From Acidimicrobiia bacterium (lineage in GTDB: Bacteria; Actinomycetota; Acidimicrobiia; Spongiisociales; ZC4RG35), in NCBI GenBank assembly GCA_025937235.1, contig JAICRU010000012.1, forward strand, positions 1 to 50,710: a stretch of DNA of 50,710 nt, read 5' to 3'. Numbering within the stretch: position 1 is the stretch's first letter; each line of letters starts with the position of its first letter. The notes under the pieces were generated by a model. That model did not search any database. It saw only the letters and a list, made by a program, of their open reading frames with translations, and was not told where the DNA came from. The translations under genes were made by a program, and so were the position numbers. Of the stretch, positions 44,375 to 50,710 are shown piece by piece.

Positions 44375-45570
44375 TCACCCTCGAAACCAGACACTCAGCG
44401 ACGCAGGCTGAAGCGTGCGTGCCAGTGTCTCCCGCAGATCCGACTCGAGCACCGCGGCGTCGGTGATGGCCGTCATCCGGTGCGAGAATGCTTCTACCTC
44501 CCGTTCCACGTCGAAGCTCGTCCGGTTGAATCTGCGATCCATCCACCGCTGCACGCGCATCCGCAACGGAGCGAACACTGCTGCCGAGGCCAAGGTCGCC
44601 GCGGCCACGGCCAGGTCGTCCGAGGCCGGGACCATCAGCTGGATCGCGATGACCCCGATTGTGTAAACGACGGCCAGAGCCCCGATCAACAGGGCATAGG
44701 TGAAGGTACGGCTGACGATGCGGTCGATCGCATACAGCTGATAGCGGTTGATGGCCAAGGCGATGGTGCCGGGAATCGAGGAGAACAACAGAACCGAGAC
44801 AAAGGGAGCCCATTGTGCCGCTTCGTCCCTCCACGTCCCAAGGGCTGCGGCGCCGATGGTAGCGGCCACGATCACGCAGACCAGAGCCAGGGAAAGCGCC
44901 ACCCACTTGATCTGGAGACGCTCCACGATGTCCGCCTTTCGGTATCTGGCCACGGTCGAAGCCAAGGCCCCGGCCGCGCCCAGCACGAGCAAGGAGGTCA
45001 GGCCAAGGTAATAAGGGGAGCCTTCGGCGAACACCTCTTCGAAAGGGCCGGTCAACGCTTCGATGCCGGCTGCGATAAATCCAAAGAGGAGAGCACCGAC
45101 TCCAGTACGAGAACCCAGCCCCATCCCCGTCGGACACGGCCGGTCGGGAAGATGAGAGGCAAGACCACCGTCATGAGGATCAGGGCGGGGAACCAGCTGA
45201 AGCCGAGCCAGACCGAGCCCAGGGTCCTGATAACCCCCGGCTCGCCCGCAACCAGGTCGGGGTGAAGGATCTCTCCGACCCAGGTGAAGGCGAAGCAGGC
45301 GCCGATGGCATGGAGGATCCAGCTCACGGGGTTGGAGCCACTTCTGCGGATGATCCAGCCGGCGAGCGAGAATGAGAGCCCGACCACGCTCGTGGTCAGC
45401 GTGGCGACGGGCCGGTACCCCAACCTGGCCAGGGGTTCGTCCCAGGTCGGATAGGTGAGGAACATGAGGGCGAGGGAGCACGACACCACCAGCAGGGCGG
45501 CAGCCGAAAGCCGCCGGCCCGCCGGATGGTCTATGACGCCCCGTCCCGTTTGGTGCATGGTGCCGATCAT
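44375..45570 (-). pseudogene. Polytopic membrane protein (sensor-like) split by a frameshift
   Basis: Two frames make one protein. The first (from 45570) gives about five hydrophobic segments and ends its similarity at the IFPTGRVRRGWGWVL stretch. The second continues with GVGALLFGFIAAGIEALTGP, helices, and a C-terminal RYQLYAIDRIVSRTFTYALLIG...RRFNRTSFDVEREVEAF...LQPASLSVWFR. I recall intact actinobacterial proteins joining these parts, often next to or fused to sensor kinases. One missing base near 45095-45110 would restore the frame. Pseudogene or sequence error cannot be separated here. Confidence 0.8.
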
Positions 45571-46270: not shown

Positions 46271-47284
46271 GTGGAAGCCCAGGACAAACGCGGAACGCAT
46301 TGGCCCCTGTTCCTGGTGGGGGCACTATTGGTAATGGGCGCCCTGATCCTGGCGGTTTGGAATCTGGAACTGCCCTATCTCGCGTTCTCCTCCGGGCCGG
46401 TCTCCGACGCCGCCGACGCAGTGGATGCCAGTGAGGTCGAGGTGTATCCCCCTGACGGCGAGCTGCTCATGCTCACGGTGGTGAGCCAGGACGTGAACAT
46501 CTTCGAAGCGATGATCGCAGGCGTGGACCCAAGCATCGACCTGGTGCCCAGGGAGGCATATCGCCCGCCGGATGAGAGCGACGAGGACTATCGCAAGCGT
46601 GTGCTCCAGCAGATGGACGACTCGGAGACCCGGGCCATCACCGTCGCCCTCGAGCATCTCGGTTACGACATGATCCCGACCGACGTGTTGGTCACGGATC
46701 TCGTGCCCGACAAGCCTGCCGCCAAAGTCCTCCGAATCGGGGACTCGGTCGACTCCCTGAATGGTGTCGAGATCGTGCGGAGCACCGATCTGACCGACGC
46801 CCTCGAGGGATTCCAGCCGGGAGAGCTGGTCGACCTGGGTGTGACCAGGGACGGGACGGCCCAGACTCTCGAGATCGAGCTAGCCGAGCGGGATGACCCG
46901 GAAGGAGGGGCCATGATCGGTATCACCGTGGGCGAGCTCAGTGAGCCACCTTTCCCGGTCTCCATCGAGGCAGGAGACGTGGGTGGGCCGTCGGCGGGGA
47001 TGATGCACGCCTTGGCGATCATCGACATCCTGACCCCCGGCGAGATGACGAAGGGGCACATCGTGGCCGGCACAGGAACCATCGCCTATGACGGCACGGT
47101 GGGCGCGATTGGGGGCATTCGCCAAAAGGTGGTGGGGGCGGAGGCCGCCGGCGCGGAGTACGTTCTTGTGCCGGAGGGCAACTACGAATCCGCCCTTACC
47201 GCACCGCGCGAATCCATCGAGATCGTGCCTGTGACGACCATCCAGGACGCCATCGACTTCTTGGATCAGCTTGAAGAGGCCTGA
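46271..47284 (+). CDS. YlbL-type PDZ/Lon-like (S16) membrane protease
   Basis: A 337-residue protein with one N-terminal membrane helix (residues about 11-30), a linker region, a PDZ domain (about 135-210) and a C-terminal Lon-like S16 domain. The Ser-Lys dyad is visible: Ser in GDVGGPSAGMMHAL near residue 240 and Lys in GAIGGIRQKVVGAEAAG near 283. There is no AAA ATPase domain. YlbL-type proteases occur in Firmicutes and actinobacteria and in Bacillus take part in recovery from DNA damage by degrading a cell-division inhibitor; the target here is unknown. GTG start at 46271. Confidence 0.92.
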   Translation: MEAQDKRGTHWPLFLVGALLVMGALILAVWNLELPYLAFSSGPVSDAADAVDASEVEVYPPDGELLMLTVVSQDVNIFEAMIAGVDPSIDLVPREAYRPPDESDEDYRKRVLQQMDDSETRAITVALEHLGYDMIPTDVLVTDLVPDKPAAKVLRIGDSVDSLNGVEIVRSTDLTDALEGFQPGELVDLGVTRDGTAQTLEIELAERDDPEGGAMIGITVGELSEPPFPVSIEAGDVGGPSAGMMHALAIIDILTPGEMTKGHIVAGTGTIAYDGTVGAIGGIRQKVVGAEAAGAEYVLVPEGNYESALTAPRESIEIVPVTTIQDAIDFLDQLEEA

Positions 47285-47341
47285 TCGTCGAATGTGCCAA
47301 ACCCGGTCGGAATCCGGCCCGGTCGGTATCTTCTAGGGCCG

Positions 47342-49174
47342 ATGGCTGCTGAGCTCAACCCCGAGCAGATCAGGGCGGTCGGGTTCCGAACCGTTCGACG
47401 TGGGCTGGATCCGGACGAGGTGTCCGCGTTTCTCCAGAGGATCGCAGCCACGATGGAGCAACTCGAGTCGGATCGGCAGCGTCTCGCCGCCAAGGTCGGC
47501 GAGTTCGCCGACAGAGACCTCGAATCGGAGTTCGAGAGCCTCGGCCGCGAAGTGGCGGCCATTCTGACCACTGCCAAGCAAGCCGCAGGCTCGATGAGGG
47601 AGAACGCCGCCCTCGATGCGGCCCGATGGCGATCCGAGGCCATGAGTGAGGTCGAGGTCATGCGGAAATCGGCGCGCAGTGACGCCGAGGCGCTGCGTGG
47701 CGACGCCTGGGCCACTGGGACCGAACTGCTCAACCAGGCGTCGGCCGAGGCACGCCGCATCCGGGGCGAGGCCGAGCAGGATGTCCTGTCCGTGATGGGG
47801 GAGGCGGAGAGAGAGGCGCATCGTCTCACGTCCACGGCACGGCGTGAGGCCGAGGATGTCCTGCGGTCGGCGATGATGGACGCTGAGAAGCTTGCATCGG
47901 AAGCCAAGAAGCGGCACGACGATCTGATCGAACAGGCCTACCGGCAGGCAGAGAGCGCCCAGGAGCGGACAAGGGCCCTCGAAGAGCGCCGCGAGGAGCT
48001 GATGCTGGAGCTGGAGACTGTGCGGTCGACCCTCAGTCGTCTCGAGGGGACCTTGGAAGAGCGCCGGGAGGACCTCGAGCTCTCCCAGGAGACGACGAGT
48101 GTCAGGGTGGTGCCGGCCCGGGTGGATCCGGGCGAGGTGGAATGGGAGCTGGGGGAAACAGTGCGAGTGATCGCTCCCGTCGAGCGAGACCCTGGTGTCC
48201 TTGAGTCTCGGGCCCGCTCCCAGCCCGACATCGACGAGATCGACGAGGCGGCCCCGGTCGATCGGTATCCCCCTCCAATGATCGATGAGCCCCGCCATGT
48301 CCCCGAGCCCGAGCCCGTCGTCGTGCCGGAGCCGGCTCCGGGTGAGCCGGACATGGAGCAGCCAACCGGGACGGAGGAGCAGGACCTGGCCGAGCCGCCG
48401 GTGGTGGAGGAAGAAGAGTCTCAGGCCGACGATGTGGGAGCCCTGTTCGCCTCGTTGCGGGGGTCTTCGCGGCCTGTGATCACCGTCCACCGCACGGCGG
48501 AGCCAGCCGAAGAAGAAGCTGCGACGGCTCCGGCCGCCTCCCTAGGGCCTGCGGCTCAGCCGGTCGCCCGCAGCGAGCATCTGGAGATGCGAGATTCCCG
48601 GCTACTCCCCATCACCAACCGTGCCCTTCGAGGCGTGAAGAAGGCCGTGACCGATGCCCAGAACGTGGCCCTGGACAGTCTCCGAATCGACGACTCCTGG
48701 CAGCCGGAGAGTCAGGTCTTGGCCGAGATGATGCAGGCCGACCTAAAGGGCCTGTGGGCGGAGAGCTACGCCGCGGGGCATTTCGCCGCCGAGGAGATGA
48801 CCGGGGAGAAGTTGGAGCGAGGGGACACTCCAACGTCCAATGCAGCCGATGAGTTCGCAGAGGACCTGGCGGGAGCCGTGTCCCTTGCCTTGGTCGATGC
48901 CGGGGAGGGGCTCCGGGCGAGACAGACAGCCGTCTCCCGCGTGTTCCGTGGATGGCGAACCGATGAGGTCGAGCGTCGCGTGCGCCAACTGGCTATGACC
49001 GGCTACCACCGTGGCCTTGCCGACTCGGTCGGCGAGACCGACGGTTTGGAATGGGTTGCCAGTGGCACACCGTGCAGCGCTTGCCGCAACGCTGCCTCCG
49101 AGCCCGAGACACATCTGCCCCCGATTCATGCGGGCTGTGAGTGCACCCTGGTCCTGGTCGGAGCCCAGACCTAG
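47342..49174 (+). CDS. DivIVA-domain coiled-coil protein with phage head-morphogenesis-like C-terminus
   Basis: A 610-residue protein. Residues 1-40 match the DivIVA membrane-curvature domain (ELNPEQIRAVGFRTVRRGLDP, EVSAFLQRI). A long Ala/Glu/Arg coiled coil fills about 35-245; a Pro/Glu-rich disordered linker covers about 270-420. The last 150 residues look like the SPP1 gp7/Mu gpF minor head family: a helical part with VERRVRQLAMTGYHRGLADS, GLEWVASGTPCSAC (C578, C581), and LPPIHAGCECTLV (H596, C599, C601), a likely zinc-binding cluster. No phage genes are nearby. A role in pole or septum organisation is inferred from the DivIVA part. Confidence 0.82.
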   Translation: MAAELNPEQIRAVGFRTVRRGLDPDEVSAFLQRIAATMEQLESDRQRLAAKVGEFADRDLESEFESLGREVAAILTTAKQAAGSMRENAALDAARWRSEAMSEVEVMRKSARSDAEALRGDAWATGTELLNQASAEARRIRGEAEQDVLSVMGEAEREAHRLTSTARREAEDVLRSAMMDAEKLASEAKKRHDDLIEQAYRQAESAQERTRALEERREELMLELETVRSTLSRLEGTLEERREDLELSQETTSVRVVPARVDPGEVEWELGETVRVIAPVERDPGVLESRARSQPDIDEIDEAAPVDRYPPPMIDEPRHVPEPEPVVVPEPAPGEPDMEQPTGTEEQDLAEPPVVEEEESQADDVGALFASLRGSSRPVITVHRTAEPAEEEAATAPAASLGPAAQPVARSEHLEMRDSRLLPITNRALRGVKKAVTDAQNVALDSLRIDDSWQPESQVLAEMMQADLKGLWAESYAAGHFAAEEMTGEKLERGDTPTSNAADEFAEDLAGAVSLALVDAGEGLRARQTAVSRVFRGWRTDEVERRVRQLAMTGYHRGLADSVGETDGLEWVASGTPCSACRNAASEPETHLPPIHAGCECTLVLVGAQT

Positions 49175-49220: not shown

Positions 49221-50710
49221 ATGTTCACAAGGGTCCCGACCGACTATCGGGCGGATCGAAGACGGCCGATCACGCTCATCCTGATCATCGTCGCCGCGAT
49301 ATACCTCTTCTTCACAGCCTTGGGCACGCTGTGGACGGACTATCTATGGCTGGGCTCGATCGGATTCGAGGAAGTATGGCGGCGCCGGTGGGGCATGTCG
49401 CTTGTACTCGGCGCCTTGGGGATCGGCATCGCCTTCCTGGTGATCTGGGTGAGCCTGCGTCTCGTCGATCGAATGTCCCCACGCTGGGCGCCGTTCGATC
49501 TGACCGAAGAGGAGGAGATGATCGAGCGCTTCCGGGAGTGGGTGGAGCCCCGGATCCGCCAGATCCGTGCCTGGATCACCGGTGGCCTCGCGGTTCTGCT
49601 CGGCTTGAGCGTCGCATCCTGGCGAGACGAAGTGTTCCTCTTCATCAACGCCAAGGAATTCGGCACCGTGGACCCGATCTTCGGGCTCGATGTCGGGTTC
49701 TATATCTTCCGGCTTCCGTTGCTGGGCACCATCACAGACTGGGTCTTCAACCTACTGGTCCTGACCACCGTGGTGGTGCTGGTCGGCCACTACTTCAATG
49801 GTGGCTTTCGTCTCAGCGGGCGAAGGCTGACCGCCACCCGGCGGGCCAAGACCCACATCTCGATCATGCTCGCCCTGATCGCGCTGGTGCGAGCGGTGGT
49901 CTACCGCCTCGACATGTACGAGTTGTTGTTGTCCGATCGGGTGGCCGACCAGTTCTTCGGCCCGGGTTTCACCGACGTCACCGCTCGTCTCCCCGCATAT
50001 CGGTTGCTGATCCTTGTCGCGGTGATGGCGGCGATCCTGTTCATCGTCAACATCTTCAGGCCGGGGTGGAGCCTGGCCCTGGTCGCCGCAGCCTCATGGC
50101 TGGTGGTGGCTGTGGCTGCAGCGGCCATCTATCCGGTGATCATCCAACGTCTCCAGGTCAGCCCACAGCCCCTGGCCCGGGAGACCCCCTACATCCAGAA
50201 CAGCCTCACCTTCACCCGGGCGGCCTGGGGGCTCGACCAGGTGGAGGTCCGCGGCTTCCCTGCCTCCGACGACCTCGAGGCGGGCGACATCGAGGCCAAC
50301 CGACTCACCATCGACAACTTGCGTCTCTGGGATCCGTCGGTGCTGCCCCGCACCTACCAGAGCTTCCAGGAGCTGCGCAACTATTACACGCTCTCGGTCG
50401 TCGACACCGATCGCTATCTGAACGAGGGAATCCCGGTCCAGGTCATGCTGTCGGTGCGTGAGCTGGAAGAGGTGAACCTGCCCCGTGAGGACTGGCTCAA
50501 CCAGCGGCTTCTCTACACGCACGGGTTCGGCGCCGTGGTGAACGTCGCCAACCAGGTGGCCGACGACGGCCAGCCCAACTTCCTCCTACGTGACGTGCCG
50601 CCCGAGGCGGCGGTGCCGGCTCTCGAGCTGGAGGAGCCCAGGGTCTACTTCGGCGAGACCTATCAGGAAGGTCGGCCGGTGATCGTCAAGACCGGTGATT
50701 CCCCCCAGGA
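49221..50710 (+). CDS. UPF0182 family membrane protein (partial, 3' end outside window)
   Basis: The first 496 residues of a protein that usually has 850-1000. It begins with a membrane helix (ITLILIIVAAIYLFFTALGTLWTDYLWLGSIGF), continues with several more helices to about residue 300, and then a soluble part starting RETPYIQNSLTFTRAAWGLD, the landmark of UPF0182/COG1615. Function is unknown; these proteins are common in actinobacteria and cyanobacteria. It follows the DivIVA gene by 46 bp on the same strand. Confidence 0.93.
   Translation, partial: MFTRVPTDYRADRRRPITLILIIVAAIYLFFTALGTLWTDYLWLGSIGFEEVWRRRWGMSLVLGALGIGIAFLVIWVSLRLVDRMSPRWAPFDLTEEEEMIERFREWVEPRIRQIRAWITGGLAVLLGLSVASWRDEVFLFINAKEFGTVDPIFGLDVGFYIFRLPLLGTITDWVFNLLVLTTVVVLVGHYFNGGFRLSGRRLTATRRAKTHISIMLALIALVRAVVYRLDMYELLLSDRVADQFFGPGFTDVTARLPAYRLLILVAVMAAILFIVNIFRPGWSLALVAAASWLVVAVAAAAIYPVIIQRLQVSPQPLARETPYIQNSLTFTRAAWGLDQVEVRGFPASDDLEAGDIEANRLTIDNLRLWDPSVLPRTYQSFQELRNYYTLSVVDTDRYLNEGIPVQVMLSVRELEEVNLPREDWLNQRLLYTHGFGAVVNVANQVADDGQPNFLLRDVPPEAAVPALELEEPRVYFGETYQEGRPVIVKTGDSPQ

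Follow-up and report, generated by a model that had tools for sequence, protein, structure and literature searches.

At the level of the family, DivIVA domains bind curved membranes and self-assemble. MuF domains have been found in phages and prophages, with a function described as unknown; in the MuF polymorphic toxins, whose genes lie in phages and prophages, the domain stands ahead of a C-terminal toxin (Jamet et al., 2017, PMC5576092). In phage SPP1, the minor head protein gp7 binds the portal protein gp6, is dispensable for assembly and aids infection (PMC6316719). The YlbL protease of Bacillus subtilis belongs to a division checkpoint, in which it and CtpA counteract YneA, an inhibitor of division (PMC6051672).

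The window analysed here, the whole stretch of 50,710 nucleotides from an Acidimicrobiia bacterium, carries a gene that bears on these systems together. Its product shares with DivIVA/Wag31 proteins (PF05103) an N-terminal DivIVA domain and a coiled coil, and with phage MuF and SPP1 gp7 proteins (PF04233, PF25310 VG15, phrog_2662, phrog_115) the order of helices, Trp-containing strand, C-x2-C and PPxH-x2-C-x-C, with significant profile similarity across about 105-165 residues. Unlike canonical DivIVA, the fusion is a paralogue with a long acidic linker and a MuF-like tail. Unlike phage MuF genes, it does not adjoin portal or terminase genes, is joined to DivIVA and appears vertically inherited; moreover, its tail lacks the phage iARTE sequence, and the knuckle is gone in some lineages. 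The polymorphic toxins are also multidomain MuF proteins, but in the fusion the MuF part is C-terminal and no prophage surrounds it, and no toxin domain was found in the fusion protein. The families are known, whereas the architecture, its clade-wide inheritance and the gene cassette appear to be undescribed. The preliminary description of this DNA had already regarded a DivIVA protein with such a tail as new, and literature searches, mainly of open-access papers, likewise gave no account of a DivIVA-MuF protein.

Results

Architecture of the fusion gene

The open reading frame spans positions 47,294-49,174 of the forward strand. The ATG at 47,342 was preferred to an in-frame GTG at 47,294 because it agrees with where the conserved DivIVA motif begins, giving a fusion gene (47,342..49,174, +; 610 amino acids) that is supported by a domain match and by orthologues. 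The DivIVA domain occupies residues 6-119 (47,357..47,698, +; PF05103, 1.8e-15; TIGR03544, 5.1e-11) and is followed by a coiled coil up to about residue 250 (48,091), as had been read from the sequence at the outset. Against the Wag31 equivalog NF050102 the protein scored 40.3 bits, below the 260-bit cut-off, and a canonical DivIVA of 262 amino acids is encoded in the same genome by a separate gene beside ileS. The fusion gene itself is single copy. In genome G120 two fusion copies were seen (L190 and C23:58956-60659), one of them interrupted by two in-frame stops within the matched region.

Residues 251-412 (48,092..48,577, +) form an acidic, variable linker with a pI of 4.1, an identity of 32-64% and a dN/dS of 0.42-0.46. 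Within this otherwise fast-evolving region lies a conserved short motif, ADDVGALFASLR (residues 362-373; 48,425..48,460, +), whose full form is [DE][DE][VIL]xxLF[AE]xLR; its core, LFxxL[RK], was present in the linkers of 63 of the 94 orthologues, compared to 0.1 expected from shuffled linkers. This conservation suggests that the motif may provide a further docking site that does not depend on the tail.

The MuF-like tail, delimited by profile comparisons, comprises the last 198 residues (413-610; 48,578..49,171, +), and the segment matched to phage MuF corresponds approximately to residues 505-610. The pattern described beforehand for this tail was found, although not its start at residue 460, since the conserved tail begins nearer to residue 413. 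A long helical segment, with the core helix SRVFRGWRTDEVERR (48,935..48,979, +) that persists even in lineages that have lost the knuckle, and W571 precede the zinc knuckle predicted from the sequence pattern, C578-x2-C581 ... PPxH596-x2-C599-x-C601 (49,067..49,144, +). The five putative ligands named earlier, C578, C581, H596, C599 and C601, are all at those positions.

The locus and its neighbours

The fusion gene lies between two syntenic genes of the same strand, with intergenic gaps of 57 bases upstream and 46 bases downstream. The upstream neighbour encodes a YlbL-like protease with PDZ and Lon-type domains (46,271..47,284, +; PF13180, 1.2e-10; PF05362, 3e-12), and the downstream one a UPF0182 membrane protein that runs off the window end (49,221..50,710, +; PF03699, 6.6e-131). 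When 38 regions of the class were inspected with their flanks (one of them, L186, read by eye), the fusion gene was found immediately before the UPF0182 gene in 37, and the YlbL-like gene was upstream in 35, in most of them as the direct neighbour; only the relocated g3 group (L204) clearly departed from both arrangements. Outside the class, the UPF0182 gene directly follows the fusion gene, and the YlbL gene, where seen, is some kilobases off. The same arrangement was found in two closed single-contig genomes, which excludes an assembly chimera.

No phage genes were detected among the window reading frames scanned, which are metabolic or transport genes, in agreement with the earlier statement that no phage gene is near, and neither a portal gene directly upstream nor the context of a phage head module was present at the fusion loci. 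Judged from its genomic surroundings, the tail is no prophage scrap. Elsewhere in the window, a membrane protein, sensor-like by eye, seems to be divided on the reverse strand at 44,375-45,570 between two overlapping frames (45,052-45,570 and 44,375-45,481); this apparent split suggests a frameshift, and Pfam gave no match on the second frame (44,375-45,481).

Similarity of the tail to phage MuF domains

Scans of the window protein alone with Pfam, NCBIfam and PHROG produced no significant MuF match, and the sole relevant PHROG line for its tail was phrog_115, 'minor head protein', with an E-value of 0.56. Taken alone, such a direct scan would resemble a refutation of the proposed kinship; as far as the sequences go, homology emerges only through relatives. 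In the profile search that the preliminary description had put forward, the window tail stayed below threshold, whereas its orthologues were matched both by PHROG (7.8e-11) and by PF04233 (5.9e-5).

The best PHROG match of an orthologue tail was that of L026 to phrog_2662, a portal family with a MuF end (7.8e-11), over 166 residues, followed by the tails of L018 (1.7e-8) and L019 (2.7e-7); further head families matched were phrog_6577 (1.1e-6), phrog_2468 (1.4e-5), phrog_115 (3.7e-5) and phrog_4728. A PF04233 search of 296 genomes of the class gave nine places at E<=0.001, six of which were DivIVA tails (G148, G282, G036, G161, G158 and G268). PF05103 and PF04233 were both found in the same reading frame in L293 (5.9e-5), in which the latter was matched over positions 6-111 of its 112, and also in L202 (5.7e-4), L292 and L181 (both 0.0012), all DivIVA-fused PF04233 matches staying under the Pfam gathering score. 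In the reverse search, a profile of the tail detected a phage MuF gene (G484/L309; 1.7e-8) that sits behind Terminase_6C and Phage_portal_3 genes.

Comparison of the tail alignment with phage MuF alignments by hhalign gave 97.7%, an E-value of 1.6e-12 and a score of 92.2, compared to a maximum of 18.3 in 100 column shuffles, and a second profile-profile comparison gave 97.0% and 9.7e-11. By tblastn of one orthologue tail against phages, mainly minor-head and head-morphogenesis genes were retrieved, at E-values of only 0.02-0.2. No match was obtained when viral contigs were scanned with the tail alignment or with an actinobacterial MuF sequence (L210). From these profile comparisons, the tail is almost certainly homologous to the MuF domain of the SPP1 gp7/Mu gpF minor head proteins.

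The AlphaFold model of the tail, obtained from two sequences, was weak (pLDDT 57.6) and shows, at this low confidence, long helices, a short helix, a strand (157-162), a helix over the C-x2-C and a further strand (190-195). In the model of a phage MuF protein, the end region has the order helix, helix, helix, strand, helix, strands, with residues 170-290 mostly at pLDDT 71-88. The order of elements is therefore alike in the weak model and in the better one, which is consistent with a predicted MuF fold but not decisive. A BFVD fold search with the weak tail model gave nothing significant (best E-value 0.04); proteins named MuF or head morphogenesis recurred among the top 30, none of them significant, and these names were not taken as proof because Foldseek scores sequence too. 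Structure searches found no solved structure of any tail relative, and the phage MuF model found no relative in the PDB.

Distribution, selection and origin

The tail is encoded in 106 of the 138 genomes of the window's order, which is not chance. A search with a 27-row alignment detected it in 190 of 296 class genomes, and a 39-row class-wide alignment in every one of the 38 genomes that represent the class in a phylum sample, almost always at a conserved locus; a survey of the fusion across Acidimicrobiia had been suggested earlier. Outside the class it was found in 18 genomes of six further families of the phylum, the phylum-sample count excluding a doubtful partial match in G438 as well as two MuF genes of phage type, in G484 and in G671. 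The lower proportion in the window's own order is attributed to losses. In tail numbering, K21, Q28, G67, P182, C187 and C189 are invariant across the class, and C166, C169 and H184 are conserved in at least 90%.

Relative to the closest relative, dN/dS was 0.06 for the DivIVA part, 0.42 for the linker, 0.08 for the tail helices and 0.13 for the zinc part; for residues 1-250 it was 0.06-0.10 in the two closest comparisons. By these ratios, the tail is under purifying selection. In a tree of short, aligned sequences, which is unrooted, all 55 DivIVA tails fell on one side of a branch from 14 phage MuF domains (SH-aLRT 98), and a single origin of the tail among the compared sequences was thus shown by the phylogeny. 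Vertical domestication of a MuF domain is very probable in view of the synteny, the dN/dS ratios, the tree, the single copy and the separate canonical DivIVA gene. The original proposal that a gp7/MuF-like domain was recruited for a cellular role is supported, and so is vertical inheritance.

Variation and loss of the zinc knuckle

Loss of the Cys/His cluster in orthologues, named beforehand as an observation that would refute the proposal, occurred in several lineages. Of 76 tree rows, 48 had an intact knuckle, 5 a degraded one and 23 none; for absence alone, the tree requires six changes, of which starred branches force three. The lineages lacking it are L010, L011, L012, L016, L021, L204, L205 and L312-L331, the sequence of L316 being cut by a contig end. 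All of them keep the SRVFRxWR[TS]DEAERR helix, the loss being always past the WR[TS]DEAERR-type helix, and no out-of-frame remnant of the knuckle was found just downstream of the gene in the loci checked. Its loss in several lineages indicates that zinc is dispensable to the role of the domain. In genus g29 (L332:5605-6822), the DivIVA gene between YlbL and UPF0182 keeps the linker motif and the MuF tail is gone; together with the knuckle losses, this implies that the tail is not needed everywhere.

Many members of the class that belong to other orders than the window (L170, L178, L180, L183 and L201) have a knuckle that reads C-P-D-C-[DE]-[DE]-[ND]-[AS]-[LI]-A, near the phage MuF form, and in tails of families elsewhere in the phylum C-x4-C replaces C-x2-C.

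Discussion

The above results make it reasonably likely that the protein is a second, specialised DivIVA scaffold with a domesticated MuF C-terminus as a docking module. The MuF domain would have been gained a single time, at an early stage in part of the Actinomycetota, and inherited since within a fixed cassette of YlbL-like PDZ-Lon protease, DivIVA::MuF and UPF0182 genes. The DivIVA half may assemble on curved membrane, at the pole or septum, with the flexible acidic linker and its LFxxLR docking motif extending the MuF domain outward. There, the domain would dock a protein, much like gp7 on the portal ring, the partner being presumably an envelope or division protein; on this analogy, a docking role at DivIVA sites is about an even chance. 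The same cassette would be the most likely source of the partner, although that particular assignment is doubtful. The zinc knuckle would steady the MuF domain and could be dispensed with.

An improbable alternative is that the tail binds DNA and tethers the chromosome, holding the nucleoid at the sites of DivIVA. Such a tether could well be a DivIVA paralogue with an extra domain, and SPP1 gp7 itself is reportedly a DNA-binding protein, from the title of the paper by Stiege and co-workers (2003). However, the tails of the class have an acidic character, with a median pI of 5.3 and a net charge of -7 (pI 4.9 for the window tail), whereas several phage MuF domains are basic, and within the tails only a core hairpin of 45 residues comes close to neutral or is basic. 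Simple DNA binding is therefore disfavoured.

Still less likely is a decoy for phage exclusion, in which the tail would mimic MuF and poison the head assembly or the injected MuF of incoming phages. The tail is homologous to a portal-binding phage protein, and defence by blocking virion assembly is known (PMC10884400). Against this, the gene is single copy, of one origin, in fixed synteny with envelope genes and under strong class-wide purifying selection, and a tail that has lost zinc would be a poor MuF mimic. Defence genes, by comparison, usually turn over and move.

Two further readings are highly improbable. That a helical bundle and a zinc-knuckle motif arose independently, by analogy rather than homology, would suit the recurrence of zinc motifs through convergence, the lack of direct matches for the window protein and the greater signal of the zinc part (hhalign E-value 2.8e-9 alone, compared to 0.0036 for the helical part alone), but it was already disfavoured: with the zinc part cut from both sides, the helical part scored 26.0 in an unchanged register, above the maximum of 15.6 in 100 shuffles, so the match is more than a zinc motif, and PHROG matches cover 166 residues and PF04233 is matched nearly full length. 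That phages instead took a cellular domain from their hosts would be compatible with the unrooted trees, but MuF is reported in phages and prophages of many bacterial taxa, and the DivIVA form was confined, among the genomes sampled, to a portion of a single phylum.

For the DivIVA scaffold with a docking module favoured here, a somewhat bolder extension, for which the odds fall a little short of even, is that a portal-docking domain has become a permanent part of a clade-wide machine of division or polar growth, in which UPF0182 and a checkpoint protease of the PDZ-Lon type also work. A virion part would thus have been recruited into cell architecture across a whole class, and a vertically inherited, cellular MuF would offer a non-phage handle on the binding target of the domain. 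The locus also draws attention to an envelope cassette of three genes, as yet unstudied, in part of the Actinobacteria. If this is true, the MuF fold would have a cellular role beyond any virion.
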